From assembly GCF_028737195.1 (NCBI RefSeq), contig NZ_JAQZAJ010000003.1, positions 434,001 to 498,000 on the forward strand: 64,000 nucleotides of DNA. The letters are read 5' to 3'. Below the pieces are notes generated by a model. It was given only the letters and a program-made list of their open reading frames with translations, did not search any database and was not told the origin of the DNA. Position numbers and translations under genes: made by a program. Within the stretch, counting starts at the first letter, position 1; each line of letters starts with the position of its first letter. Shown here in pieces: positions 49,483 through 64,000 of this stretch. The stretch is from Pseudovibrio exalbescens. GTDB lineage: Bacteria > Pseudomonadota > Alphaproteobacteria > Rhizobiales > Stappiaceae.

Positions 49483-50013
49483 ATGCAACGAGAGCATTGG
49501 GGAAGTCGGTTTGGCTTCATCATGGCGGCAGCAGGATCTGCCGTGGGACTGGGAAACATCTGGAAGTTTCCATACCTGGCCGGATCAGAGGGTGGGGGCG
49601 CCTTCCTGATCATTTATCTTGCAATGGTTGCTACCATTGGCCTTTCTGCCATGATCGCTGAAATCGCCATAGGCCGTTACGCTCAGTTGGACCCAATCGG
49701 GGCTTTCAAGAAGACTGGCGGCGGGCCCTGGGTGATTTTTGGAATACTGGCAATCCTGACGCCCTTCCTCATCCTGTCTTTCTATTCGGTTGTTGGTGGC
49801 TGGACCATCGCCTACATCGTGAAGAGCTTTGCCCTGATGTTTGGGGGCGGCTCCGGTGTTGGTCATGAGGACCAGTTCAATCAGCTGGTGTCCTCGCCTG
49901 TTGAACCGATCATCTACCATGCTCTGTTCATGGGGTTGAGCATGGTGATCGTGCTCAAGGGCGTGACGGATGGCATTGAAAAGGCCTCCAAGATCCTGAT
50001 GCCATTGGTGTGA
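49483..50013 (+). pseudogene. NSS (SNF) Na+-dependent transporter, N-terminal fragment
   Basis: 176 residues covering roughly the first five membrane helices of an NSS transporter. FIMAAAGSAVGLGNIWKFPYLAGSEGGGAFLIIYL is the first-helix signature with the Na+ and substrate site residues. The frame stops after GIEKASKILMPLV, far short of the usual ~450 residues. The next frame is a second NSS copy that starts in its second helix, so the reading continues in a paralogue after a one-base frame change. It is probably a remnant of a deletion between two tandem transporter genes, or an assembly error. Confidence 0.8.
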
Positions 50014-51182
50014 GCGTTATGATGGCGGAAATCGCCATTGGCCGTGCTGCCAAGCTGAACCCTGTCGGTGCTTTCCGCGTCGTGGCAGGTCGGAGCTGGA
50101 TGCCGGTTGGTCTGCTCGGTGTGATCACAGCCTTTGCTATTCTCTCGTTCTATTCTGTGGTTGGTGGCTGGACCATCGCCTATCTTGTAAAGACGTTCAC
50201 TGGCGAAATCAGCAGTGGTTCCGCAGCAATCCTTGGTGGCCAGTTCGAGGCGCTGGTGGGTTCTGTCGTTGAGCCGCTCGTTTATCACGGCATCTTCATG
50301 GTGATGACCGTTGTGATCGTGCTTTTGGGCGTCACATCAGGCATTGAGAAGTCCGTAAAGGCCTTGATGCCGCTCTTGTTCATCTTGCTGATTATTCTTG
50401 TGATCCGCAGTGTGACGCTGCCGGGCGGCATGGAAGGTATCATTTTCTTCCTGAAGCCTGATTTCTCGCAGATTAGCATGGACATGATCCAAGCCGCGCT
50501 CGGTCAGGCTTTCTTCTCTCTTTCATTGGGCATGGGTGCCATGATCACCTATGGCTCCTACTTGTCTCCTGAGACAAACATCCGCAGCTCGTCTGTTTGG
50601 GTTGTTTCTCTGGACTTTATGGTGGCCTTCCTTGCAGGTCTTCTGGTGTTGCCAGCAGTGTTTGCCTTCGGCATGGATCCTGGTGCGGGGCCCGGCCTGA
50701 CCTTCATCACCTTGCCTGCGATCTTTGGCGAAATGCCATTTGGATTGCTGTTTCAGGCGGTGTTCTTTGCCATGCTGCTGATTGCGGCGCTGACCTCTTC
50801 AATCTCTCTTCTGGCAATTCCGGTTGCGTACTTCTCTGAGAGCTTTGGCATGGGCCGCAAGGCAGCTTCCACCGTGGTTGGCCTTGTCATCTTTGCCATC
50901 GGCATTCCATGTTCCCTTTCTCTGGGCGTGTGGGGCGACATTCTGTTCTTTGGCATGCCGTTCTTTGACTTCCTGTCGTTCCTGGTTGACAAGTTCTTCC
51001 TGCCAATCGGTGGCATTCTGACGGCAATCTGTGCGGGTTGGTTTGCGTATGGCAAGGTGTCTCGTGAACTGGAAAATCAGGGCGAACTGCCATTTTCCTA
51101 TCTGCAGATCTGGAAGTGGATTGTTCGCATCGTGGCGCCAATCGCTATTGTCTGGGTCATGGTTATTGGCTTCATAGGCTAA
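50010..51182 (+). pseudogene. NSS (SNF) Na+-dependent transporter, fragment lacking the first helix
   Basis: 390 residues starting at a GTG that overlaps the previous stop (GTGA). It begins within the second helix (VMMAEIAIGRAAKLNPVGAF, equivalent to AMIAEIAIGRYAQLDPIGAF in the preceding fragment) and runs through to the normal C-terminus. The first helix, which carries the Na+ and substrate site, is missing, so it is unlikely to transport alone. Translational coupling could make both parts, but whether they assemble is unknown. Confidence 0.8.
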
Positions 51183-53464: not shown

Positions 53465-54448
53465 CTAGCCGTTCTCAAGCAGGAAGTCTGCGGTTTCATG
53501 GTCTGTGATCAAATCCGTCACATAGCCACCGCGCAGGCCTGCAAGGACCGCTTGATGGTTCTTCGGGCCCCCGCCGATCATGATGCGGCTTGGAATTTGT
53601 CGGAGCTGAGCGAGGTTGATGCCAAGGATCCGCTGGTCCAGTTCTGTGATAACCGGTTGTCCCTGTGCATCCAGAAACCGTCCGCAGATGACAGCGGTTG
53701 CGCCCAGCTGCTTGTAGGTCTCCATATCCTGTTCCGAGATGATGCCGGCCCGTACCGCCGAATTATTGGGTGAGCAGTGGCCAACCACAAAGACTGCGCG
53801 GCTGCACCGTTCCAGAACGGCAAAATGAGAGCGCACGATGGGCTCGGCCTGAAGTTCCGTGGCGAGGCGGGCGCTGGAGACGATCGCCGGGACATTGAGG
53901 TTCATGCCGGTGCCCTCAAACCTGTTGGCGATAAGTGAGGAGCCCTCGTCGGCGGCAAAACTGTATTGGGCATACATGGAGCCGATCATTTGCAGCACGC
54001 TGACATTCTTTAGCGGCTTGCGGGGCATGGCCTGACTCAGCTCGTGAATGGTGCGGCCCCAGGCGATTCCAATGGTGTCGTTATCCTTCGTAACATGGCT
54101 GAGATACATGGCGCCTGCACGGGCAAGCCGGATGCGAACATGGGTTTGGCCGTCACCTGCCGGGGCGACCAGTACATTATCCAGACCGAACTTGGTCTTG
54201 AGCTTTGATGAGATGGTCGCCTGAGTATAGCGGTCCTGATCCAGTGTGATCTGAACGTACCCAAGTTCGCGGGCTTGCTGCAGGTACTTGACGACGCTGG
54301 CGCGGGAAACGCCCAGAACCTCTGCGATATCGGTCTGGTTCAGGCCCTCCTGATAGTAGAGCCATGCTGAATGCAAGATGGGGTCCTTGTTGAACCAAAT
54401 CGCACTGCTTTTTTCTTTTCTGGTCACGCCCGCTGCCTCGTAGCCCAA
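53465..54448 (-). CDS. SorC-family sugar-binding transcriptional regulator
   Basis: 327 residues. HSAWLYYQEGLNQTDIAEVLGVSRASVVKYLQQARELGYV is the N-terminal helix-turn-helix; the rest is the SorC effector domain with DTIGIAWGRTIHELSQ and IMIGGGPKNHQAVLAGLRGGYVTDLITD. SorC-type regulators bind phosphosugars. The gene is divergent from the mutarotase-aldolase pair and is the natural controller of the whole 54.5-64 kb cluster. Confidence 0.93.
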   Translation of the reverse strand: MGYEAAGVTRKEKSSAIWFNKDPILHSAWLYYQEGLNQTDIAEVLGVSRASVVKYLQQARELGYVQITLDQDRYTQATISSKLKTKFGLDNVLVAPAGDGQTHVRIRLARAGAMYLSHVTKDNDTIGIAWGRTIHELSQAMPRKPLKNVSVLQMIGSMYAQYSFAADEGSSLIANRFEGTGMNLNVPAIVSSARLATELQAEPIVRSHFAVLERCSRAVFVVGHCSPNNSAVRAGIISEQDMETYKQLGATAVICGRFLDAQGQPVITELDQRILGINLAQLRQIPSRIMIGGGPKNHQAVLAGLRGGYVTDLITDHETADFLLENG

Positions 54449-54554
54449 TCGATCAAGTTGCCGCCCTTACCATAAGTTTCGCGTTAATTGCTACTCCCAA
54501 TCATTCCGAGGAAACGGGAGACTTGCCAGAGACATATTACAAATGGTATTTAGT

Positions 54555-54570
54555 AATGACAAATGTAAAA
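54555..54570. promoter_or_regulatory. Shared 16-bp motif, putative SorC operator (site 1)
   Basis: AATGACAAATGTAAAA lies 10 bp before the FucU-like gene. It matches the complement of the motif at 55980-55995 in 15 of 16 positions. TTACAAATG at 54527-54535 gives a second half-site about 25 bp upstream. Sharing between the promoters of two adjacent transcription units supports one common regulator. Confidence 0.6.
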
Positions 54571-54579
54571 GGTGGGCTC

Positions 54580-55014
54580 ATGTTAAAATCGATAGATCCG
54601 CTGCTGTCTGCTGATCTGCTATATGCTCTGGCGTCCATGGGGCATGGCGATACGCTGGCGATTGTTGATGCAAATTTTGCAGCTGCATCACGGGCTAACG
54701 GCCATCTGATCACTATGCCGGGCACGACGGCCAGTGATGTTCTGGCGGCCATCCTCACGCTGTTTCCTGTCGACGGGTTCGATGATTGCCCCATCAAGCT
54801 GATGGCGCAAGCCGACGATGCGGAGCTGCCTGAAGCGGCGCAGGATTTCCTCAAGGTGTTGGATGCCAGTGAGGAGAAGGGCCACAAGTGGGAAGCGATC
54901 GATCGGTTCGCCTTTTACGACCTAGCAGAAAAAACAAGTCTTATTGTTGCGACCACGGATCTGCGCCCTTATGGCTGCCTGATCCTGCAGAAGGGAGTGG
55001 TGTTCGATGGTTAG
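54580..55014 (+). CDS. RbsD/FucU-family sugar mutarotase
   Basis: 144 residues from the ATG at 54580 (AAAGGTGGG upstream; the longer frame from 54523 is an overextension). The FucU-like blocks are LSADLLYALASMGHGDTLAIVDANFAA with the catalytic His in MGHGD, PIKLMAQADDAELP and RFAFYDLAEKTSLIVATTDLRPYGCLILQKGV (Tyr in FAFYD). Family members interconvert sugar anomers (L-fucose, ribose). Here it could prepare an imported ribose analogue for the kinase. It overlaps the aldolase gene by 8 bp. Confidence 0.92.
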   Translation: MLKSIDPLLSADLLYALASMGHGDTLAIVDANFAAASRANGHLITMPGTTASDVLAAILTLFPVDGFDDCPIKLMAQADDAELPEAAQDFLKVLDASEEKGHKWEAIDRFAFYDLAEKTSLIVATTDLRPYGCLILQKGVVFDG

Positions 55015-55831
55015 TCATGATGCCTGGCTGCAGTCTGACCTGGTGAAGGAACTGAAGGTGCTTGCCTATGCGCTTTGGGACAAAGGGTGGGGCGAGCGCA
55101 ATGCGGGCAACATAAGTGTCCGCTTGAACCCGCAGCAGATGGCCGAATGGGGTGTTGCCGAGATGGCGTCCACCCAGTGGTATGATCTTCCAAAGCCGGT
55201 GCCTGCTCTTGCCGGGCAGCACATGCTGATGACCGCCAGCGGCGCGTTCATGCGGCATGTGAAAGAAAATCCTGAGCAAGATCTGGGTCTTGTGCGCTTT
55301 AGTGAAGATGGTTCGCAGTTTACACCCATCGCTGGCTACGCTGGCGGGGGGCGGCCTTCAAGCGAAATGATCACCCACCTTCTGGTGCATGCAGAGCGCC
55401 AGGACAAGGGGCAATCGGTGATCGTTCACACCCATGCAGACTGGCTGCTATTGATGAGCCATCTTCACGATCAATCCAGTGAGGCGTTTACAAAGACGCT
55501 GTGGCGGATGTGCTCTGAAAGTCTGATGTTCTTTCCCGATGGCGTTGGTGTTGTGCCGTGGATGTTGCCGGGCTCTCTCGCCATTGGTGAGGCGTCAGGA
55601 GAATTGGCCCAGACGCACCGCTTGATCCTCTGGGCTTACCATGGGGTTCTGGCAGCGGGTGATTCACTTGATGATGCGTTCGGCTTGATCGAGACCGCCG
55701 AGAAGGCCGCGATGATTTACTGTCAGGGCAAGATGGCCGGAATGGACCTGCCGGGAATCAGTGATGCGCAGATTGTCTCTCTTGGAAAGCATCTGGGCGT
55801 GACGCCGATCTACGAGCTGAATGGGCAATAG
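55007..55831 (+). CDS. Class II aldolase, rhamnulose-1-phosphate aldolase-like
   Basis: 274 residues, exactly the length of E. coli RhaD, with matching blocks: LWDKGWGERNAGNISVRL, VIVHTHADWLLLMSHL (zinc His residues HTH), MFFPDGVGVVPWMLPGSLAIGEA, WAYHGVLAAGDSLDDAFGLIETAEKAA and GKHLGVTPIYE. Members cleave a ketose-1-phosphate to DHAP and an aldehyde. Next to mtnK and mtnA the likely substrate is a 5-substituted ribulose-1-phosphate, giving DHAP plus methylthioacetaldehyde or acetaldehyde. True rhamnulose-1-phosphate use is less likely because rhamnose kinase and isomerase are absent. A terminator follows. Confidence 0.92.
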   Translation: MVSHDAWLQSDLVKELKVLAYALWDKGWGERNAGNISVRLNPQQMAEWGVAEMASTQWYDLPKPVPALAGQHMLMTASGAFMRHVKENPEQDLGLVRFSEDGSQFTPIAGYAGGGRPSSEMITHLLVHAERQDKGQSVIVHTHADWLLLMSHLHDQSSEAFTKTLWRMCSESLMFFPDGVGVVPWMLPGSLAIGEASGELAQTHRLILWAYHGVLAAGDSLDDAFGLIETAEKAAMIYCQGKMAGMDLPGISDAQIVSLGKHLGVTPIYELNGQ

Positions 55832-55871
55832 AACACTGTTTGATCGGTCATATTTTTATATGACGGCTAAG

Positions 55872-55894
55872 GGGCAGGGAAACCTGCCCTTTTT
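55872..55894 (+). terminator. Terminator between the aldolase and ABC-transporter units
   Basis: Stem GGGCAGG/CCTGCCC with a GAAA loop and five Ts. A weaker inverted repeat GTCATAT/ATATGAC lies just before it (55847-55864). The terminator separates the mutarotase-aldolase unit from the transporter unit. Confidence 0.92.
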
Positions 55895-55979
55895 GCATTC
55901 TGATGCGCCTATCGCGCGGTTTGCCGAGTGGCTCATGCGTTGCGCTATTATGTAATTTCCCTCATCAATTCGAGATATA

Positions 55980-55995
55980 TTTTACACTTGTCATT
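55980..55995. promoter_or_regulatory. Shared 16-bp motif, putative SorC operator (site 2)
   Basis: TTTTACACTTGTCATT; its complement AATGACAAGTGTAAAA matches site 1 in 15 of 16 positions. It lies 47 bp before the ABC ATPase start, in the promoter region. A further half-like ACTTGTC follows at 56023-56029 (within ATGTAACTTGTCC). Confidence 0.6.
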
Positions 55996-56042
55996 TGTAT
56001 AAAACATATGTAACTTGTCCCTACTGCTTTTGGGAGGAGGCG

Positions 56043-57596
56043 ATGGGGATACAATCCGACAGCATAGAAATCTCCGGTATCAAGAAGAGCTTTGGTACCA
56101 ACACCGTGCTGCACGACATCAGTCTGACCGTGAGTGGTGGCGAGGTTCTCGCTCTCATGGGGGCCAATGGTGCAGGCAAGTCGACGCTGGTTAAAATCCT
56201 TTCAGGTGTTTACCAGGCCGATGGGGGTTCCATCAGCGTCAATGGCCAGACCAGCATCATCGACACACCACAGCAAGCACGAGAAAGCGGCATCGTAACC
56301 GTTCACCAGATCATCAATGACGGTGTTGTTCAGGATCTTACGATTGCCGAAAACCTTATTCTTGATCAGCTTTGCGATGGTCGGTTCCCGGCCTTCGTGA
56401 ACAAGGGAAAGCTCCATGAACGCGCTGCGGAAGTGGCCAAGACAATTGGTCTTGATCTGCCGCTGGACACCAAGGTTGCGGAGCTGAGCCAAGCGGACAA
56501 GCAGCTCGTGGCCATTGCCCGCGCGCTGAGTGTCAAGCCGCGGCTGCTCATTCTTGATGAGCCAACCTCCAGTCTTTCCGAACGAGAAGCTCTGCGCCTG
56601 TTTGATGCGGTGGAGCAAATGCGCGATCAAGGCGTGGCGATCATCTACATCTCACACAGAATGTCGGACATTCGCCGTTTGGCCGACCGCATTGCTGCGT
56701 TGAGAGAAGGGCGCATTGTGGGGCTGTTCGAGAAGCCTCTGGATTACGATGGCGCGGTTCACTCCATGCTGGGGCACGCCGTTGGTGAAGTCATGCACGA
56801 CTACCAAAGCGGGGAGGCCTCGCGTGTTGTGTTCCGTCAGGTTCAGCTGGCTGAAGGGTCCAAGCCGTTTGATCTCGACCTGAAAACGGGTCAGATCGTG
56901 GCGCTGACCGGTCTTTTGTCTTCCGGTTGTGCCAGCGTGGTTGAAAGCCTGTTTGGGATGCACGAGTTCGCCAGCGGAACGGTGATGCTGGATGGTGCTG
57001 AGTGGCGGGCAGCGTCCCCCAATCAAGCCATCAAGGACGGCGTTTACATGGTTCAGGAAGATCGCGGCAATAACGCCATCATTCCGGACTTCTCGATTGA
57101 GAACAACACAAGCCTGCCTTTTCTTAAGAGCTTCTCCTGGCTGAGTTTCATCAACCGGGATCGGGAGAAGGCGCGGGTGAAAGAGGTGATTGACCTGACC
57201 AAGGTCAAATACACCGACCCCACCGCAGAGATGTCGACGCTATCCGGTGGCAACCAGCAGAAGGTCATGGTGGCCCGGTGGATGCTCGAGGAGTGCCGGG
57301 TGTTGCTGCTCAATGAGCCATTCCAGGGCGTAGACATTTCCTCGCGTCGACAGATCGGGAAGTTGCTGCGCGAAACCGCCAAGGACCGGGTGACCATCGC
57401 GGTTTGTACAGACGTTGAGGAAGCACTTGAAATCGCTGACCGGATCATCGTTTTCAACCACAACAATCTGGTTGGCGATCACCGTATCGATCAGATCGAT
57501 ATGCCCACCTTGATCAAGCAGATCGCAGCGGCACCAGATGCGGACTTTACTGCGCTCAGCTCTTCAAAAACTCAAGAAACTGACATTCACGCCTGA
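56043..57596 (+). CDS. Sugar ABC transporter, double ATP-binding subunit (RbsA/MglA type)
   Basis: 517 residues from the ATG at 56043 (GGGAGGAGG upstream). The first nucleotide-binding half has GANGAGKST and LLILDEPTSS; its signature is atypical, LSQADKQ. The second half has a degenerate Walker A (GLLSSGCAS), but a proper LSGGNQQK and LLLNEPFQGVD; this asymmetry is normal for ribose/galactose-type importers. It powers the import of the cluster's sugar with the permease and binding protein that follow. Confidence 0.94.
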   Translation: MGIQSDSIEISGIKKSFGTNTVLHDISLTVSGGEVLALMGANGAGKSTLVKILSGVYQADGGSISVNGQTSIIDTPQQARESGIVTVHQIINDGVVQDLTIAENLILDQLCDGRFPAFVNKGKLHERAAEVAKTIGLDLPLDTKVAELSQADKQLVAIARALSVKPRLLILDEPTSSLSEREALRLFDAVEQMRDQGVAIIYISHRMSDIRRLADRIAALREGRIVGLFEKPLDYDGAVHSMLGHAVGEVMHDYQSGEASRVVFRQVQLAEGSKPFDLDLKTGQIVALTGLLSSGCASVVESLFGMHEFASGTVMLDGAEWRAASPNQAIKDGVYMVQEDRGNNAIIPDFSIENNTSLPFLKSFSWLSFINRDREKARVKEVIDLTKVKYTDPTAEMSTLSGGNQQKVMVARWMLEECRVLLLNEPFQGVDISSRRQIGKLLRETAKDRVTIAVCTDVEEALEIADRIIVFNHNNLVGDHRIDQIDMPTLIKQIAAAPDADFTALSSSKTQETDIHA

Positions 57597-57609
57597 TCGG
57601 GAGGATCAG

Positions 57610-58593
57610 ATGACTAACTTTCGGGATCACGCCATCAAGTATGGCCTCCTCGTCCTTTTGGCGACGATGATTGTGTTCTTCTCGATCGCTCAGCCAGCGT
57701 TCCTGAGCATGATCAACGTGTTCATCATTTTGCAGTCCGTGTCGATCGTGGCCATTTTGGCTCTTGGGGTGACGGCGACGCTGGCGGTAAACGGGTTTGA
57801 CCTTTCCATTGGCTCTACGGCGGCCTTTTCCATGATGATGGCGTCCTATGTGATGATCGTCTTTGATGGGGGCACCACGGCGGCCATTCTCACCGCGCTG
57901 GGTGTGGGCGTGCTTGTGGGGCTCGTGAACGGCTTCATGACGGTGCAAATGCGCGTTCCGGATCTTCTGGCAACGCTGGGCATGATGTTCCTTCTGCTTG
58001 GCTTGCAGCTCATTCCAACGCAGGGCCGTTCCATTGCAGCCGGCATGAGCCTTTCGGGCGGGGAAACCGCACCGGGCAAGTTCACCGAAGCCTTCCTGTT
58101 CCTTGGCCGCGCTCGCTTGTTTGACATTATTCCGGTGCCTGTTGTGATCATGCTGGTGCTGGCGGTCATTACCTATCTGTTCCTCGAGCGCACCCGCCAT
58201 GGCCGGGTCATGTACGCCATCGGTTCCAACGAGCGTGCAGCGCATCTGGCAGGGGCTCGGGTCAAATTCTACCGGTACGTGGCCTATGTCATGTCTGGTG
58301 TCTACGCTTCCATCGGCGGCATTCTGCTTGCGGCTCGCATTGGTCGCGGCGACGTGAGTTCTGGCAACTCACTGCTGATGGATGGTGTTGCTGCAGCGCT
58401 TATTGGCTTTGCAGTTCTCGGGGCCGCACGCCCCAATGCGCAAGGTTCTGCCATCGGTGCGCTTCTGGTCGGTGTTCTTCTGAACGGTCTGACCATGATG
58501 AACACGCCTTACTACACGCAGGATTTCATCAAGGGTCTGGTGCTTGTTGCTGCCCTGATGTTCACCTTCGGCCTTTCCAAAAAGCGCGGGTAA
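57610..58593 (+). CDS. Sugar ABC transporter permease (RbsC type)
   Basis: 327 residues from the ATG at 57610 (GGGAGGATC upstream), with eight to ten hydrophobic segments. The conserved cytoplasmic loop is ERTRHGRVMYAIGSNERAAHLAGARVKFYRYVAYVMSG, and NGFDLSIGSTAAFSMM, GLVNGFMTVQMRVPDLLATLGMMF are typical of the RbsC family. A single permease gene is present, so the channel is a homodimer. It follows the ATPase gene by 13 bp. Confidence 0.94.
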   Translation: MTNFRDHAIKYGLLVLLATMIVFFSIAQPAFLSMINVFIILQSVSIVAILALGVTATLAVNGFDLSIGSTAAFSMMMASYVMIVFDGGTTAAILTALGVGVLVGLVNGFMTVQMRVPDLLATLGMMFLLLGLQLIPTQGRSIAAGMSLSGGETAPGKFTEAFLFLGRARLFDIIPVPVVIMLVLAVITYLFLERTRHGRVMYAIGSNERAAHLAGARVKFYRYVAYVMSGVYASIGGILLAARIGRGDVSSGNSLLMDGVAAALIGFAVLGAARPNAQGSAIGALLVGVLLNGLTMMNTPYYTQDFIKGLVLVAALMFTFGLSKKRG

Positions 58594-58616
58594 TTTCGTC
58601 ATAACTGGGAGAAATA

Positions 58617-59654
58617 ATGATGAAATCTACATTAAAAAAACTTGGCCTTGCAGTTGCCTCCATCGCTTTGATGGCAACGACGGGAGCACAAGCAGAGGAA
58701 GTGAAGTCCCCATTTGAAGGTAAGGGCATGAAGATTGCGCATGTTCGTTACCTGTCGCAGGGTGATTTCCCGGAGCTTTATCTGTCAGGTGTTCGGGCGC
58801 AGGCCGAAGCCCTTGGTCTTGAGCTGGATGTTTATGATGCCCGTCAGGATGCCGCCATCCAGCGCAGCCAGCTGGAACAGGCCATCATGAAGGGGTATGA
58901 CGGCATCATCCTCCAGCATGGGTTTACCGACTCCTTGAAGGATCTGGCGGATATGGCCGTTCAGAACGGCATCAAGGTGGTGGCGTTCGATGTGAATGCG
59001 GACAACCCAGAAATTCCTCAGATCAATCAGGACGATCACCTGATCGCGCGCATGTCCCTGGAGCAGGCCATCAAAGACAACGGCAACGCCTGGAAGGCAG
59101 CCTACGTCTACGTGCCGGGCATTCCGCCACTTGATCGCCGTGATGAGGTGTTCACCGAGCTGAAGGAAAAGTTCCCAGGCATTGAAGAGGTGGCGCGTTT
59201 TGGCACCCTGAACAACCCGATCCCGAACCAGATTGCCGACCAGGCCGCTGCTGTTTTCCGCGCGAACCCAGACATCACGGTTGCATTTTCGCCGTATGAT
59301 GAGTTTGCCAAGGGCATCAAGATTGCCGTGGATGAAGCGGGTCTTTCCAGCAGCGTGAAGATCTATTCTGCTGACATTTCCAACTCGGACATTCAGGCCA
59401 TGCGTGAGCCGGGCAGTGCGTGGGTTGCAACCACTGCGACCAACCCAGCCATCATGGGGCAAGTGAGCGTTCGCGCGCTGGCGTACCTGATGAACGGTGA
59501 AAACCCGGGCAGCCAGGTGACCGTGCCACCTGTCCTGATCACTCAGGAAATGCTGAACGCGCTGGACATCAAAAACATGAATGATCTGGTCGCCAAAGTC
59601 GCCAGCTTCTCCACGTCCGATACGCTGACACCCGATTGGATGCCGCTCCCATAG
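58617..59654 (+). CDS. Periplasmic sugar-binding protein of the ABC transporter
   Basis: 345 residues with a signal peptide (LKKLGLAVASIALMATTGAQA). The body is a cluster B, ribose-type binding protein: KIAHVRYLSQGDFPELYLSGVRAQAEALGLELDVYDARQDAAIQRSQLEQAIMKGYDGIILQHG. It delivers the substrate to the transporter. ATG codons at 58617 and 58620 are both possible. A perfect hairpin follows the stop (59677-59701). Confidence 0.94.
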   Translation: MMKSTLKKLGLAVASIALMATTGAQAEEVKSPFEGKGMKIAHVRYLSQGDFPELYLSGVRAQAEALGLELDVYDARQDAAIQRSQLEQAIMKGYDGIILQHGFTDSLKDLADMAVQNGIKVVAFDVNADNPEIPQINQDDHLIARMSLEQAIKDNGNAWKAAYVYVPGIPPLDRRDEVFTELKEKFPGIEEVARFGTLNNPIPNQIADQAAAVFRANPDITVAFSPYDEFAKGIKIAVDEAGLSSSVKIYSADISNSDIQAMREPGSAWVATTATNPAIMGQVSVRALAYLMNGENPGSQVTVPPVLITQEMLNALDIKNMNDLVAKVASFSTSDTLTPDWMPLP

Positions 59655-59676
59655 GACGCAGGCGATGCTGCGCACG

Positions 59677-59701
59677 GGTGGAGGCGGTTTCTGCCTCCAC
59701 C
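59677..59701 (+). other. Intercistronic hairpin after the binding-protein gene
   Basis: A perfect 9-bp stem GGTGGAGGC/GCCTCCACC with loop GGTTTCT, no T-run. Such hairpins after binding-protein genes often protect the upstream message and lower expression of the downstream genes, which suits a binding protein needed in excess over kinase and isomerase. The functional role is inferred. Confidence 0.6.
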
Positions 59702-59738
59702 TCCTACCGATCACGCGACTGCTAGACATAGGTGCAAA

Positions 59739-61004
59739 ATGAGCGTTGAAGCGCCACTAGGCTACAAGATCCAAACTGTTGAGACCCTTCCGCATTATCT
59801 GATTTCCAAGTTGCCGCCGGCCCTCAATTTGGGCGGGGCACCAGAAACCTGGGAGGTGAAGGAAGTTGGCGATGGCAACCTCAATCTGGTTTTCATCGTG
59901 TCCGGTTCCATGAAAACAATCGTGGTCAAGCAGGCTGTGCCATATGTGCGCGCCGCTGGCGAAAGCTGGCCACTGCCGCTGACCCGCGCGTTTTTTGAGT
60001 TCAATGGCCTCGTTGAGGAGCGCCGCTATGCGGGCGACACGGTGCCAGAGGCGTACTTCTATGATGAACAGATGGCGCTGTTCGCCATGGAATACATCAC
60101 GCCACACGTGATCCTGCGCAAGGAGCTGATCGCTGGCAAGAAGTTCCCGAAACTCGCCAAGCATATCGGTGAGTTCCTGGCTCAGACGCTGTTTAACACC
60201 TCTGATCTGGGCCTTGAATCGGCGCAGAAGAAAGAGCTCGTGCAGCGCTTTTGCGTGAACACCGACCTTTGCCGGATTACAGAAGATCTGATCTTTACCG
60301 AGCCGTTCTTTGATGCACCACGCAACAACTGGACAAGTCCTCAGTTGGATGATGCGATCAAGGCCCTTTGGTCTGATCAAGAGGTCATTCAGGTGGCCAT
60401 GAAGTACAAGCTCAAGTTCATGAGTGAGGCGCAAGCGCTGCTTCATGGTGACCTGCATTCCGGCTCCATCATGGTGACGGAAGACGAGACCAAGGTCATT
60501 GACCCTGAGTTCGGTTTCTATGGTCCAATGGCCTTTGATATTGGCAACTACATTGGCAACCTGTTCTTTGCCTTTTATGCGCAGCCGGGCCACCGCGCGA
60601 GCGCTGGCGAGGTGGAAGACTACCAGAGCTGGTTGCTTGAGCAGATTGTCGAGACTTGGGGCGTGTTTGAGCAAACGTTCCGCACGCTGTGGACCAACAA
60701 GCAGAAGGGTGAAGCTTACCCGCGCAGCATCTATCAGGATGGCATCAATGGAGATGCATTCCTGAAAGCGGCGCAGGATGACTTTTTCCGTACGCTCTTT
60801 ATCGATACGCTGGTGAATGCGGGTCTGGAAATGCACCGCCGCATCATTGGTTTCGCCGGGGTTGCCGACTTCAAGGAGATTGAAGACGCTGACCTGCGTG
60901 CTTCACTTGAAACACGGGCGCTGAAACTGGCGCGCCAGCTTATGGTTGCTCCTGAGAGTTTCTCAGGGTTTGCAGATGTTAATGCCTACGCAAAGCAGTG
61001 CTGA
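59739..61004 (+). CDS. mtnK: S-methyl-5-thioribose kinase
   Basis: 421 residues, close to the usual ~400-420. It has the aminoglycoside-phosphotransferase-like kinase fold: EVGDGNLNLVFIV and IVVKQAVPYVR (nucleotide loop and Lys), the catalytic loop LLHGDLHSGSIM (His236, Asp238) and the metal site DPEFGFYGPMAFDIGN (Asp255). It phosphorylates 5-methylthioribose at C1 using ATP; homologues also accept 5-deoxyribose. In this cluster the sugar is apparently imported instead of being produced from methylthioadenosine, because no nucleosidase gene is nearby. Confidence 0.94.
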   Translation: MSVEAPLGYKIQTVETLPHYLISKLPPALNLGGAPETWEVKEVGDGNLNLVFIVSGSMKTIVVKQAVPYVRAAGESWPLPLTRAFFEFNGLVEERRYAGDTVPEAYFYDEQMALFAMEYITPHVILRKELIAGKKFPKLAKHIGEFLAQTLFNTSDLGLESAQKKELVQRFCVNTDLCRITEDLIFTEPFFDAPRNNWTSPQLDDAIKALWSDQEVIQVAMKYKLKFMSEAQALLHGDLHSGSIMVTEDETKVIDPEFGFYGPMAFDIGNYIGNLFFAFYAQPGHRASAGEVEDYQSWLLEQIVETWGVFEQTFRTLWTNKQKGEAYPRSIYQDGINGDAFLKAAQDDFFRTLFIDTLVNAGLEMHRRIIGFAGVADFKEIEDADLRASLETRALKLARQLMVAPESFSGFADVNAYAKQC

Positions 61005-61016
61005 GGGAGAAACGAG

Positions 61017-62123
61017 ATGAAAATTGGCGATAAACACTACCGCTCGGTCTGGGTTGCAGAAGATGGGCGCACGGTTCAAATCCTGGATCAGACCAAGCTT
61101 CCATTCGAGCTGGAAATCATTGACCTGCACACGGTGACGGATGCAGCAACCTCGATCCGTGACATGTGGGTGCGCGGTGCGCCGCTGATTGGTGCGGTGG
61201 CTGCCTACGGCGTGGCGCTGGCCATGAAGAAGGACACCAGCGATGAAAACCTGCAGGCTGCCTATGACGAGCTGATCGTTACCCGTCCGACAGCGATCAA
61301 CCTGAAGTGGGCGCTGGATCGCATTTGTCCGGCCTTGAAGGAAGTGAACCCGGCTGAACGGTTGACTGCGGCCTACGCCCTTGCTGGCGAAATTGCTGAT
61401 GAAGACGTCCAGATCAACAACCAGATCGGCGAAAACGGGTTGAAGATCATTCGCGAAATTGCAGCGAAGAAGAAGCCGGGTGAGACGATAAACATCCTGA
61501 CCCACTGTAATGCGGGCTGGCTGGCAACTGTTGACTGGGGCACGGCGCTCTCTCCGATCTACAAGGCCCATGATGAAGGCATCAAGGTGCATGTTTGGGT
61601 GGATGAGACCCGCCCGCGTAACCAGGGTGGCCTGACCTCGTTTGAGCTGGGCAGCCACGGCGTGTCCCACACATTGATTGCGGATAATGCCGGTGGGCAC
61701 TTGATGCAGCACGGCGAAGTGGACCTTTGCATTGTGGGCACGGACCGTACCACGGCGCGCGGCGATGTGTGCAACAAGATCGGCACCTACCTGAAGGCAT
61801 TGGCTGCCAAGGCGAACGGCGTTCCGTTCTATGTGGCGCTGCCATCGCCAACCATCGACTGGACGGTTTGGGATGGGGTGAAGGAAATCCCCATCGAGCA
61901 GCGCGATGGCACGGAACAGTCCCACGTTTACGGCATTGGGCCGGATGGGACCCGCACATGGGTGGACACGGCGCCTAATGGAACAACTTGCGGCAACTAC
62001 GCTTTTGACGTGACGCCTGCGGAGTATGTGACCGGACTGATTACCGAGCGCGGCGTGTGTGAAGCTTCTCCTGAAGGGCTGAAGGCGCTGTTTCAGGAAA
62101 AAGACACGGTCGCCGCTGGCTAA
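61017..62123 (+). CDS. mtnA: S-methyl-5-thioribose-1-phosphate isomerase
   Basis: 368 residues. [33 protein letters not shown], the catalytic Cys in [16 protein letters not shown] (Cys164), [13 protein letters not shown] and the catalytic Asp in [20 protein letters not shown] (Asp243) give the complete MtnA signature. It converts 5-methylthioribose-1-phosphate (or the 5-deoxy analogue) to the ribulose form, the substrate of the class II aldolase at 55007. It follows mtnK by 12 bp. A terminal extension of the methionine salvage pathway (mtnB, mtnC, mtnD) is not present in the window. Confidence 0.95.
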
Positions 62124-62140
62124 ACACTAGGAACGAAACG

Positions 62141-63061
62141 ATGAAAAACCAGGAATCCGAAGTCGTTGCACTCGGAATAAGGCGGCGTGTGTTTGAACAC
62201 ACGATCCGGAACAACGGCGGTTATCTCTCGCAGGCGTGTTCGGCAGCTGACACTTTGGCTGTGCTTTACGAAGACGTTTTGAACCTTGGCCCGAGCATTG
62301 CTCCGGCCATTCCCGCCCCGTTTGGCGGTGTGCCTTCTCCAGACAACCCGAACTCCTTTACCGGGGCGGGGTATCACGGGGAATTTGCACCGCACTATGA
62401 CCGCTTCATCATCAGCCCGGCGCATTACGCGCTGGTGTTTTACGCCGCACTCATTGAAGTGGGCCGGATGGCACCTGAAGGGCTGAAGATGTTCAACAAG
62501 GATGGCTCCTCTGTTGAGATGATCGGCGCTGAGCACTCTCCGGGGATGGAAGTGACCAACGGTTCGCTCGCTCAGGGCCTGTCCATGGCATCCGGCATTG
62601 CGTTTGCCCGCAAGCGCCGCGGCGATGAGGGCCGGGTGTTCGTCTACATGTCTGATGGCGAGTTTGAAGAAGGCCAGACCTGGGAATGCTTTGCCAACAT
62701 GGCGCACCACAAGATCAACAACGTGACCTGTGTGGTGGACTTCAACGCCCAGCAGTGTGACGGTGCCATGAGCGCTGTAACCGAGATCGGTGATCTTGTG
62801 GCCAAGCTGAAGGCGTTTGGCGCGGATGCCGTGATGGTGGACGGGCACGACCATGAAGCTCTGCGTGAGGCCATGAACCGGCGCAGCGAAGACGGCCCGG
62901 TGGTTGTGATTGCCAAGACCTCTCCTTACGAGGGGATGGACTACCTGCAAAAGCGGTTCCCGCGGCTCCACTACGTGCGCTTTACCTCCGAGGACGAAAA
63001 GATCGAGCTCCGCGATGCCATTGCCGAGCAGCTTGGCGTCAATGTTGCCGAGATCGAATAG
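62141..63061 (+). CDS. Transketolase, N-terminal (TPP-binding) subunit
   Basis: 306 residues, the size of the split transketolase A subunit. The thiamine-diphosphate motif is YMSDGEFEEGQTWECFANMAHHKINNVTCVVDFN (GDG-like SDGE plus the terminal N), and GLSMASGIAFARKRRG, EHSPGMEVTNGSLAQG are typical transketolase blocks. With the next gene it should form a heteromeric enzyme that moves two-carbon ketol units. Split transketolases occur in sugar catabolism operons; its link to methylthioribose genes is not one I know to be described. Confidence 0.93.
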   Translation: MKNQESEVVALGIRRRVFEHTIRNNGGYLSQACSAADTLAVLYEDVLNLGPSIAPAIPAPFGGVPSPDNPNSFTGAGYHGEFAPHYDRFIISPAHYALVFYAALIEVGRMAPEGLKMFNKDGSSVEMIGAEHSPGMEVTNGSLAQGLSMASGIAFARKRRGDEGRVFVYMSDGEFEEGQTWECFANMAHHKINNVTCVVDFNAQQCDGAMSAVTEIGDLVAKLKAFGADAVMVDGHDHEALREAMNRRSEDGPVVVIAKTSPYEGMDYLQKRFPRLHYVRFTSEDEKIELRDAIAEQLGVNVAEIE

Positions 63062-63073
63062 GGACCGATAGAG

Positions 63074-64000
63074 ATGGAAATTGCAATCAAGCCCTATGTG
63101 AAGTCCTTTATCGACTTTGCCAGCCAGCGCCCTGAAGTGCTGTGCCTTTCTGCTGACCTGACCAGCTCGTGCGAGGTGGACAAGTTCCGCGACCAATACC
63201 CGGATCAGTTCGTTTCCTGCGGCATGGCCGAGCAGAACATGCTGTCCTTTGCGGGCGGCCTTGCCATGGAAGGTTACCGGCCATTCCTGCACACGTTCGC
63301 CGTGTTCCTGTATCGCCGGCCGCTGGACCAGCTGATCAACTCGGTTGCCTATTCCAACCGCAAGGTGCGGTTGATGGGCTTCCTGCCGGGCATCACCACG
63401 CCGGGGGGCATTACCCACCAGGCGATTGAAGATGTGGCGATCCTGCGGGCGATCCCCAACATGACCATTCTGGAAACCGGTGATGCCACGGAAGTGGAAA
63501 CCGTGCTGCCGGTGGCCGATGCGGTGGACGGCCCGGTTTATGTGCGCGTGTTGCGCGGGCAGGTGCCGCGCCTGTTCTCAACCCCGTTTGAGTTCAACAA
63601 GCTGCGCTGCCTTTCTGAAGGCAAGGACCTGCTCGTTGTGACCTCCGGCATCTGCACCGAGGAAGCCCTGCGCGCGACCGCTGTGCTCAAGGAAAAAGGC
63701 GTTGGCATTCGCCATCTGCATGCAAGCACCTTGAAGCCGTTCAACAAGGAAGCGCTGCTGGAGCACATAAGCGAAGTGGATGGCGGGGTGATCACCCTTG
63801 AAAACCACAGCATCGTCGGCGGCCTTGGCAGCATTGTTTCCGAGATCATGGCGGAAGAGGGCGTTGGCAAGAAGCTGATCCGTCTGGGCCTGAAAGACAC
63901 CTTTGCCCATGGGGCCTCCAAGGGGTACCTGATGGAAAAGTATGGTCTTGATGCCAAGGCGCTGGTGGCGGCGGTTGAAACCCTGAGCGGGCAGAAGACC
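63074..64000 (+). CDS. Transketolase, C-terminal subunit (cut by right edge)
   Basis: At least 309 residues from the ATG at 63074, open at the window end. VLCLSADLTSSCEVDKF, SCGMAEQNMLSFAGGLAMEGYRPFLHTFAVFLYRRPLDQLINSVAYSNRKVRLMG (the pyrimidine-binding half, with its catalytic Glu in AEQN) and the C-terminal LENHSIVGGLGSIVSEIM match the B subunit of split transketolases. It starts 12 bp after the A subunit gene. The stop lies beyond position 64000, so the length and any genes that follow in the operon are unknown. Confidence 0.93.
   Translation, partial: MEIAIKPYVKSFIDFASQRPEVLCLSADLTSSCEVDKFRDQYPDQFVSCGMAEQNMLSFAGGLAMEGYRPFLHTFAVFLYRRPLDQLINSVAYSNRKVRLMGFLPGITTPGGITHQAIEDVAILRAIPNMTILETGDATEVETVLPVADAVDGPVYVRVLRGQVPRLFSTPFEFNKLRCLSEGKDLLVVTSGICTEEALRATAVLKEKGVGIRHLHASTLKPFNKEALLEHISEVDGGVITLENHSIVGGLGSIVSEIMAEEGVGKKLIRLGLKDTFAHGASKGYLMEKYGLDAKALVAAVETLSGQKT

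Follow-up and report, generated by a model that had tools for sequence, protein, structure and literature searches.

A probable 5-methylthioribose operon of Pseudovibrio exalbescens in which a split transketolase-like enzyme adjoins a RuBisCO-like protein

Introduction

5'-Methylthioadenosine (MTA) and 5'-deoxyadenosine are by-products of S-adenosylmethionine use. In the MTA-isoprenoid shunt, the RuBisCO-like proteins (RLPs) of Rhodospirillum rubrum and Rhodopseudomonas palustris turn methylthioribulose-1-phosphate into 1-methylthio-xylulose-5-phosphate, from which a cupin then releases methanethiol, and an aldolase branch is also described in the same paper (PMC5893883). The dihydroxyacetone phosphate (DHAP) shunt is represented by clusters of a kinase, an isomerase and a class II aldolase, some of which contain sugar transporters and one a homologue of fucose mutarotase (PMC6079011). 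In this study, we analyzed an operon at the end of a stretch of 64,000 nucleotides from P. exalbescens (contig NZ_JAQZAJ010000003.1, positions 434,001 to 498,000; hereafter the window). The unit to explain is a SorC-family regulator gene followed by the divergent run fucU-rhaD-ABC(ATPase, permease, binding protein)-mtnK-mtnA-TKa-TKb-RLP, in which TKa and TKb are the halves of a split transketolase-like (TK) enzyme, together called TKab.

The genes from fucU to TKb lie on a single strand with short gaps or overlaps, except for about 210 bases before the gene of the ATP-binding cassette (ABC) ATPase. The RLP gene starts about 1 base after the TKb stop codon on the same strand, in the continuation of the contig past the window end, and downstream of it the next composition-picked frames face the opposite way. 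An earlier interpretation made from the letters of the window (the original prediction) had named ten of these genes, and all ten proved to be open frames matching the expected families. It correctly included the split transketolase but, with the RLP next to it falling outside the window, assigned it no role.

Compared with the MTA-isoprenoid shunt, the locus has in common MtnA, an RLP with agreeing RuBisCO-type motif positions and methanethiol as the expected sulfur product, whereas it contains TKab in place of the cupin, plus an importer, a kinase and the SorC regulator. No cupin match was found in this locus (L002) or in any TK-linked locus, unlinked copies not having been searched. Compared with the DHAP shunt or 5-deoxyribose salvage clusters, it has in common the kinase and the isomerase, both scoring over curated cut-offs, the class II aldolase and an MtnR-like regulator, and a mutarotase and a transporter occur in some published clusters (PMC6079011, PMC12632272); here, however, the aldolase is RhaD-like, TKa, TKb and the RLP are added, and the ABC importer is of the 5-methylthioribose (MTR) type. 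The suggestion of the original prediction that the combination with a mutarotase and a split transketolase is not a described pathway falls for the kinase-isomerase-aldolase set with transporter or mutarotase, which appears in PMC6079011; the new part of the system is TKa-TKb-RLP. We consider it probable that the operon serves the use of MTR, and probably of 5-deoxyribose too, through two exits, one by way of the aldolase and the other by way of the RLP and TKab.

Results and discussion

Transketolase halves accompany one clade of RuBisCO-like proteins

A profile built from four TK-linked RLPs was searched in a species-genome collection, and the best 80 of 119 relatives were kept, which together with 19 loci from further genomes gave a set of 99 RLP loci. 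In the retrieved stretches, 60 loci contain TKa and/or TKb and 23 contain a cupin, while none contains both and 16 contain neither. The cupin was identified as PF07883 in L140 and by similarity to that protein in the other loci. On a wider search of its genome L134 moves from the loci with neither partner to the TK-linked ones, and in L119 and L124 the TK genes are located a few kilobases from the RLP gene, not adjacent to it. In the tree of these 99 RLPs, which was calculated by a quick method with SH-aLRT support, one branch (SH-aLRT 99) divides 74 RLPs (60 TK-linked and 14 with neither partner; the TK side) from 25 RLPs (23 cupin-linked and two with neither; the cupin side). The swap of partner between TK and cupin thus follows the RLP phylogeny.

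TKb orthologues, at 54% identity or more, are present in 68 of the 74 TK-side genomes (61 linked and 7 unlinked) and, by whole-genome searches, in none of the 25 cupin-side genomes. Eleven cupin-side genomes were searched singly and contained no TKb orthologue, two of them having matches of 37-39%; the other 14 belonged to an alphaproteobacterial class search, in which their TKb matches were 39% or lower, or absent. When the 14 TK-side RLP loci without TK genes in the stretch were followed up, TKb was found in 8 of the genomes (57-72% identity), that of L134 being linked. The class search covered 385 alphaproteobacterial genomes and gave TKb matches of at least 60% in exactly three (G000, G430 and G288), the next being 42% or lower, and the same three genomes are those whose RLP is TK-linked. 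Judging by record titles, many of them of metagenome-assembled genomes (MAGs), TK-linked loci occur in Pseudomonadota, Bacillota, Chloroflexota, Spirochaetota, Myxococcota, Actinomycetota, Deinococcota and Elusimicrobiota, and isolates among them include Alicyclobacillus, Rhizobium, Hoeflea and Paracoccus. Since TKa and TKb are naturally fused into a single frame with no internal stop in two phyla, in L077 (Nitrospirota, 702 amino acids) and L103 (Spirochaetota, 664 amino acids), the two halves are likely to form one enzyme.

At the RuBisCO-type motif positions that were checked, the TK-side RLPs agree with the cupin-side RLPs except at one, where 20 of the 74 TK-side proteins have Glu for Asp. 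The RLP of this operon resembles the cupin-linked RLPs at these positions, yet it is placed in the opposite clade. The original prediction had proposed a neighborhood search for mtnK, mtnA, the aldolase and the split transketolase; across genomes, the transketolase halves are associated with the RLP. Among the titles and openings of abstracts covered by our literature search, none linked an RLP with a transketolase in this manner, although subscription journals were mostly outside its coverage and such a paper may exist; the word transketolase is absent from the review PMC6302742, and PMC7895386, which matched RLP and transketolase terms, concerns the Calvin cycle in its available part. TKa-TKb-RLP appears to mark an undescribed route shared by diverse bacteria.

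Proposed pathway

In the proposed pathway, the ABC importer would bring MTR in and the FucU-type protein would probably interconvert its anomers. MtnK would then form MTR-1-phosphate, which MtnA would convert into methylthioribulose-1-phosphate. At the first exit, the RhaD-like aldolase would cleave this intermediate into DHAP and an aldehyde, as in the known DHAP shunt. At the second exit, the RLP may shift the carbonyl to give 1-methylthio-xylulose-5-phosphate, and TKab, with a donor pocket that lacks the hydroxyl-binding His, may cleave the C2-C3 bond to give glyceraldehyde-3-phosphate and a two-carbon unit bound to thiamine diphosphate (ThDP). We propose this cleavage because a xylulose-5-phosphate modified at C1 has the shape of a transketolase donor and because TKa-TKb goes with the RLP. 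Loss of methanethiol to leave an acetyl group would follow the phosphoketolase pattern: TKab would expel methanethiol much as phosphoketolase expels water, and the two-carbon unit would most likely leave as an acetyl group. The methanethiol could be re-fixed by an O-acetylhomoserine sulfhydrylase, which is found over cut-off in the host genome. In the case of 5-deoxyribose, which carries a plain methyl group, the two-carbon unit would be released at the acetaldehyde level. The exit through the aldolase would suit 5-deoxyribose, both products being usable, and the RLP exit would suit MTR, from which the aldolase would leave methylthioacetaldehyde. The reactions assigned here by analogy to MtnK, MtnA, the aldolase and the RLP isomerase are known in other organisms. 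As for TKab, we tentatively suggest that it might be a new ThDP enzyme, a methylthio-xylulose-5-phosphate phosphoketolase or lyase forming glyceraldehyde-3-phosphate, methanethiol and acetyl phosphate (or acetate), which is a possibility and not the expected outcome.

Active site of TKab

The residues of TKab were aligned with those of Escherichia coli TktA and of 1-deoxy-xylulose-5-phosphate synthase (DXS), using 55 TKa and 58 TKb sequences. The equivalents of the metal-site residues D155 and N185 are each present in 55 of 55 TKa sequences, those of H473 and R520 in 58 of 58 TKb sequences, and those of E411 and S385 in 57 of 58 (one gap each). The H66 equivalent is found in 52 of 55 TKa sequences, and R358 is Arg in 44 and Lys in 11. 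On the other hand, H26 is replaced by Tyr in 54 of 55 TKa sequences and H100 by Met in 50 and by Leu in 5, while H461 is Phe and D469 is Gly in all 58 TKb sequences; TKa of this genome has Tyr at TktA position 26 and Met at position 100. TKab therefore retains the ThDP/Mg residues and the catalytic Glu411 of transketolase and lacks its substrate-site residues H26, H100 and D469. F461 and G469 occur together in the orthologue group only (11 of 11), among 36 loci checked.

Such replacements bear on a plain sugar route, in which ribose or nucleosides would be converted through ribose-1-phosphate and ribulose-1-phosphate, the RLP would form xylulose-5-phosphate and TKab would act as an ordinary transketolase. 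Xylulose-5-phosphate is a normal transketolase donor, and a purine nucleoside phosphorylase (PNP) is encoded near MtnA-TK-RLP in three loci (L052, L114 and L116). However, H26, H100, H461 and D469 are all replaced in TKab, the genome has a further transketolase-like frame of 700 codons on contig 24 (weak DXS-model matches to both halves), and the matches of the regulator and the binding protein point to a 5-substituted ribose, so we judge this route highly improbable.

The donor-site residues of transketolase include H66, H100, G114 and H473; H100 corresponds to Phe in DXS, and the H100F or H100L substitution in transketolase raises the use of pyruvate (PMC7661550). In our TktA/DXS alignment the DXS residue at this position is F107. 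H100L combined with D469T on a stabilized background also gives pyruvate use, and the hydroxyl is all that pyruvate lacks in comparison with the normal donor (PMC10787763). Since H100 is lost in TKab and H100F or H100L allows the use of pyruvate, the TKab pocket, as read from the alignment, would fit a donor without the C1 hydroxyl, for example 1-methylthio- or 1-deoxy-xylulose-5-phosphate. The split-gene transketolase of Carboxydothermus hydrogenoformans (6yaj, 6yak) is likewise encoded by two genes and is the best solved match of both halves, but it keeps His at position 100 (PMC7661550), where TKab has Met or Leu in addition to H26Y, H461F and D469G. DXS resembles TKab in having a hydrophobic residue in place of H100, and differs in that TKab is encoded by two genes. 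A role of TKab as a spare DXS was rejected, as the genome has a separate full DXS (806.5 bits) and TKb is far below the DXS-model cut-off (163.6 vs 465.95 bits).

The change at D469, an acceptor-site residue, would also be compatible with TKab taking free 5-substituted ribose as acceptor and adding two carbons to form a 7-substituted sedoheptulose. A promiscuous Synechococcus transketolase makes 7-deoxysedoheptulose from 5-deoxyribose, and in that case, too, a transketolase meets a 5-deoxy sugar; it is a general enzyme, though, with the sugar as acceptor, and the available part of the paper makes no mention of rubisco (PMC8102628). The altered His100 is a donor-site residue, and the acceptor scheme leaves unexplained why TKab follows one RLP clade. 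We regard it as extremely improbable.

A second group of split transketolases was observed in alphaproteobacterial loci (L217-L224), with 35-42% identity to TKb and with Tyr26 and a hydrophobic residue at 100. By eye their surroundings differ, several containing a short-chain dehydrogenase/reductase (SDR) oxidoreductase and some a TRAP-type transporter or a LysR regulator.

Substrate evidence from the binding protein and the regulator

The periplasmic solute-binding protein (SBP) is homologous to a solved MTR-transporter protein, which ranks first both by sequence and by fold. Its best solved relative by phmmer is 4RY8 (1.5e-56), Thermotoga lettingae TLET_1677, with about 36% identity and the PDB title "5-methylthioribose transporter solute binding protein TLET_1677". 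The SBP structure was predicted by AlphaFold from an alignment of 21 sequences (pLDDT 90.5), and a Foldseek search of the PDB with this model placed three 4RY8 chains on top (E 8.3e-31 to 5.2e-30), followed by 5ULB (2.0e-26) and by the remaining matches from 1.5e-18; the likeness to 4RY8 is one of overall sequence and fold. An ordinary ribose importer was rejected, 4RY8 being far ahead of ribose-binding proteins among the solved matches. The regulator shows 50.6% identity over 320 amino acids to E. coli K-12 YjhU, the E. coli version of the MtnR-type regulator of the DHAP shunt. YjhU has been named MtnR, and deletion and reporter experiments show that it represses DHAP-shunt genes induced by 5-deoxyribose (PMC12632272). 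Based on the SBP match and the regulator identity, the assignment of the operon to the import and breakdown of an external 5-substituted ribose of the MTR/5-deoxyribose class, which the original prediction had put forward, is well supported at the level of homology.

The same regulator raises the question of whether 5-deoxyribose is the main substrate, in which case the RLP would form 1-deoxy-xylulose-5-phosphate (DXP) and TKab would release glyceraldehyde-3-phosphate and an acetaldehyde-level unit, the carboligation of DXS in reverse. The genes under MtnR/YjhU in E. coli are induced by 5-deoxyribose and the same MtnK and MtnA handle both sugars (PMC12632272), Phe stands at the H100 position of DXS (PMC7661550; F107 in the alignment), and L116 encodes a deaminase-family protein that matches, among others, the model of 5'-deoxyadenosine deaminase, with a score under the cut-off. 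Against this, the best solved match of the SBP is an MTR-binding protein, other loci contain sulfur-related neighbors, and the aldolase alone would give usable products from 5-deoxyribose, leaving no obvious need for the RLP and TKab. We consider 5-deoxyribose unlikely as the main substrate, and MTR remains our preferred one.

Metabolic context in the host genome

The host genome (4.39 Mb, 99.96% complete) has a single MtnA match, the operon copy. An MTA phosphorylase scores over cut-off elsewhere on the same contig, through which MTA made by the cell can enter by way of the same MtnA. The original prediction had taken the absence of a nearby nucleosidase to point to scavenging from outside; this argument fails, and the system is not restricted to scavenging because the genome has this phosphorylase. 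As for canonical methionine salvage, no MtnB (TIGR03328) and no acireductone dioxygenase (ARD/MtnD, PF03079) match was found in the genome, MtnC not having been searched. Of 41 RLP genomes searched for ARD, 40 gave no match, with a hit in 1 of 33 TK-side genomes (L093) and in 0 of 8 cupin-side genomes; few of the controls have it either (2 of 14 over cut-off), hence the absence of ARD is weak support.

Neighbors of the module in other loci

Neighbor counts refer to matches to the proteins of the window within the retrieved stretches, and many of these loci are short and related; neighboring frames were grouped by composition-scored clustering and selected loci were scanned against family models. 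MtnA was found in 37 of 74 TK-side loci, MtnK in 30, SorC in 29 and the SBP in 26, vs none of each in the 25 cupin-side loci.

The neighbors bear on the proposal of the original prediction that the DHAP shunt is the working route. If it were the sole one, the RLP and TKab would supply isoprenoid synthesis or have some unrelated metabolite as their substrate. The RhaD-like aldolase lies within the operon; by clustering, up to 14 other alphaproteobacterial loci (of which L108 and L113 were scanned) encode a bifunctional class II aldolase/SDR protein beside MtnA, and two annotated plasmid records have one near MtnA. In L093, L130 and L138, however, TKa-TKb-RLP accompanies MtnK-MtnA, and none of the aldolases queried had a match in the stretches, which are short for L130 and L138. 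The genome also has its own DXS, and the partner swap follows the RLP phylogeny. We find it very unlikely that the DHAP shunt is the only working route.

Five loci without an MtnK match contain a nucleoside phosphorylase: a PNP in L052, L114 and L116, the last together with the deaminase-family protein described above (all its matches below model cut-offs), an MTA/methylthioinosine (MTI) phosphorylase-like protein in L084, which reaches 239 bits on the MTI model (cut-off 223), and, in L145, a protein that resembles uridine phosphorylase but scores below cut-off. Phosphorylases in MtnK-less loci are what a shared 5-substituted ribose-1-phosphate intermediate would predict, and ordinary nucleosides would fit too. 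Among the sulfur-related neighbors, a BisC-family S/N-oxide reductase is encoded near TK-RLP in L114 (3556-5871; 908.7 bits, cut-off 1017.55), and clustering places members of this family in L122 (11123-13429), L131 and L145 (13025-15358). L093 encodes a methionine-gamma-lyase-family enzyme with scores under the cut-offs, and L122 has a weak match to homocysteine S-methyltransferase. The BisC-family reductase may reduce a sulfoxide form of the substrate.

Other arrangements were also observed. In L120 and L122, TKa-TKb-RLP is joined by a class II aldolase/epimerase-like protein, an ABC importer of another kind and a PfkB kinase (L120 scanned, L122 clustered), and the stretches of these loci have no MtnK or MtnA match; they perhaps handle a different sugar that is phosphorylated as a ketose. 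In Bacillota, L134 with L201 contains SorC, FucU, an ABC importer, MtnK, MtnA, the RLP, a class II aldolase and a PduL-type phosphotransacylase, and the regulator separates these genes from TKa-TKb. A phosphoribulokinase-family kinase lies upstream of the cupin-linked RLPs in L129, L140, L143 and L147 (PRK07429 at 279.5 bits in L140, cut-off 236; the rest by similarity), which suggests another entry into the RLP-cupin route.

Points that weigh against the proposed route

Several points should be considered against the proposed use of MTR through the RLP and TKab. First, the search profile was built from TK-linked RLPs and the list was restricted to the best 80, both of which bias the share of TK loci upward. 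Second, no TKb orthologue was found in 6 of the 74 TK-side genomes, all MAGs, where the best matches were 30-37% or none. Third, Tyr26 and a hydrophobic residue at 100 also occur in 13 of the 15 more distant alphaproteobacterial split transketolases whose locus includes a TKa half; judging from these alignments, this pocket is wider than the pathway and the two residues alone are no proof of substrate, and the active-site signature was withdrawn as stand-alone proof for this reason. Fourth, a His five residues from M100 is conserved in 55 of 55 TKa sequences (motif [ML]IGA[ED]HSPG), and this invariant residue might stand in for H100 in space. Fifth, with an aldolase present in the operon, the RLP branch could be redundant. 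Sixth, the SBP56 methanethiol oxidase has no match in the host genome. Finally, the sulfur-related neighbors are confined to a handful of loci, with most model scores under the curated cut-offs.

Gene content of the locus

The features of the locus are listed in Table 1. For the mutarotase, the longest frame starts at 54523, the PF05025 match begins at residue 22 of this longer frame, and the ATG at 54580 fits the family; on the FucU equivalog model the protein scores 87 bits vs a cut-off of 141. The aldolase scores 254.6 bits on TIGR02624, below the cut-off of 400.95, and on these model scores it is RhaD-like, not a certified RhaD. TKb matches the split transketolase 6yaj at 1.4e-63. Apart from the operon, two adjoining frames of the window (49483-50013 and 50010-51182), each by eye resembling part of a sodium:neurotransmitter-type symporter, have a repeated stretch in common, as if two tandem copies had recombined.

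Table 1. Features of the P. exalbescens locus, in window numbering
Feature	Position	Strand	Evidence and remarks
SorC-family regulator, probable MtnR orthologue	53465..54448	-	PF04198 (Sugar-bind) 216.7 bits; true start may be a few codons inside
FucU/RbsD-type mutarotase	54580..55014	+	PF05025 117.4 bits (cut-off 25)
RhaD-like class II aldolase	55007..55831	+	NF002963 275.3 bits (cut-off 170); PDB 2v2a 3e-58
ABC importer ATPase, ribose/arabinose type	56043..57596	+	two ABC_tran domains; NF008442 381 bits (below cut-off 689)
ABC importer permease	57538..58593	+	PF02653 131.7 bits
Periplasmic binding protein (SBP), probably for 5-methylthioribose	58617..59654	+	phmmer and Foldseek best match 4ry8
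MtnK, 5-methylthioribose kinase	59739..61004	+	TIGR01767 498.8 bits (cut-off 275)
MtnA, 5-methylthioribose-1-phosphate isomerase	61017..62123	+	TIGR00512 409.8 bits (cut-off 279)
TKa, ThDP-binding half of split transketolase-like enzyme	62141..63061	+	PF00456 63.9 bits
TKb, pyrimidine and C-terminal half	63074..64075 (window ends 64000)	+	PF02779, PF02780; L002 13074-14075
RuBisCO-like protein (RLP), beyond window end	64077-65186 (extended window numbering; L002 14077-15186)	+	PF00016 103.5 bits; 3qfw 2.5e-82

Implications

The way in which bacteria recycle or consume the sugar remnants of MTA and 5'-deoxyadenosine determines whether sulfur is retained, escapes as methanethiol or is diverted into by-products. 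If TKab were the phosphoketolase or lyase suggested above, it would open, together with the RLP, a third exit from methylthioribulose-1-phosphate, one that needs no oxygen and recovers the sugar carbons in full. The TKa-TKb-RLP trio occurs in eight bacterial phyla or more, as judged from record titles with many MAGs among them. The recurring combination of an RLP with a transketolase altered in its donor pocket would provide a new metabolic partner for the RLPs and could extend the known ThDP reactions by one, and our reading predicts a substrate for genes that are labelled by domain only in the two annotated records.

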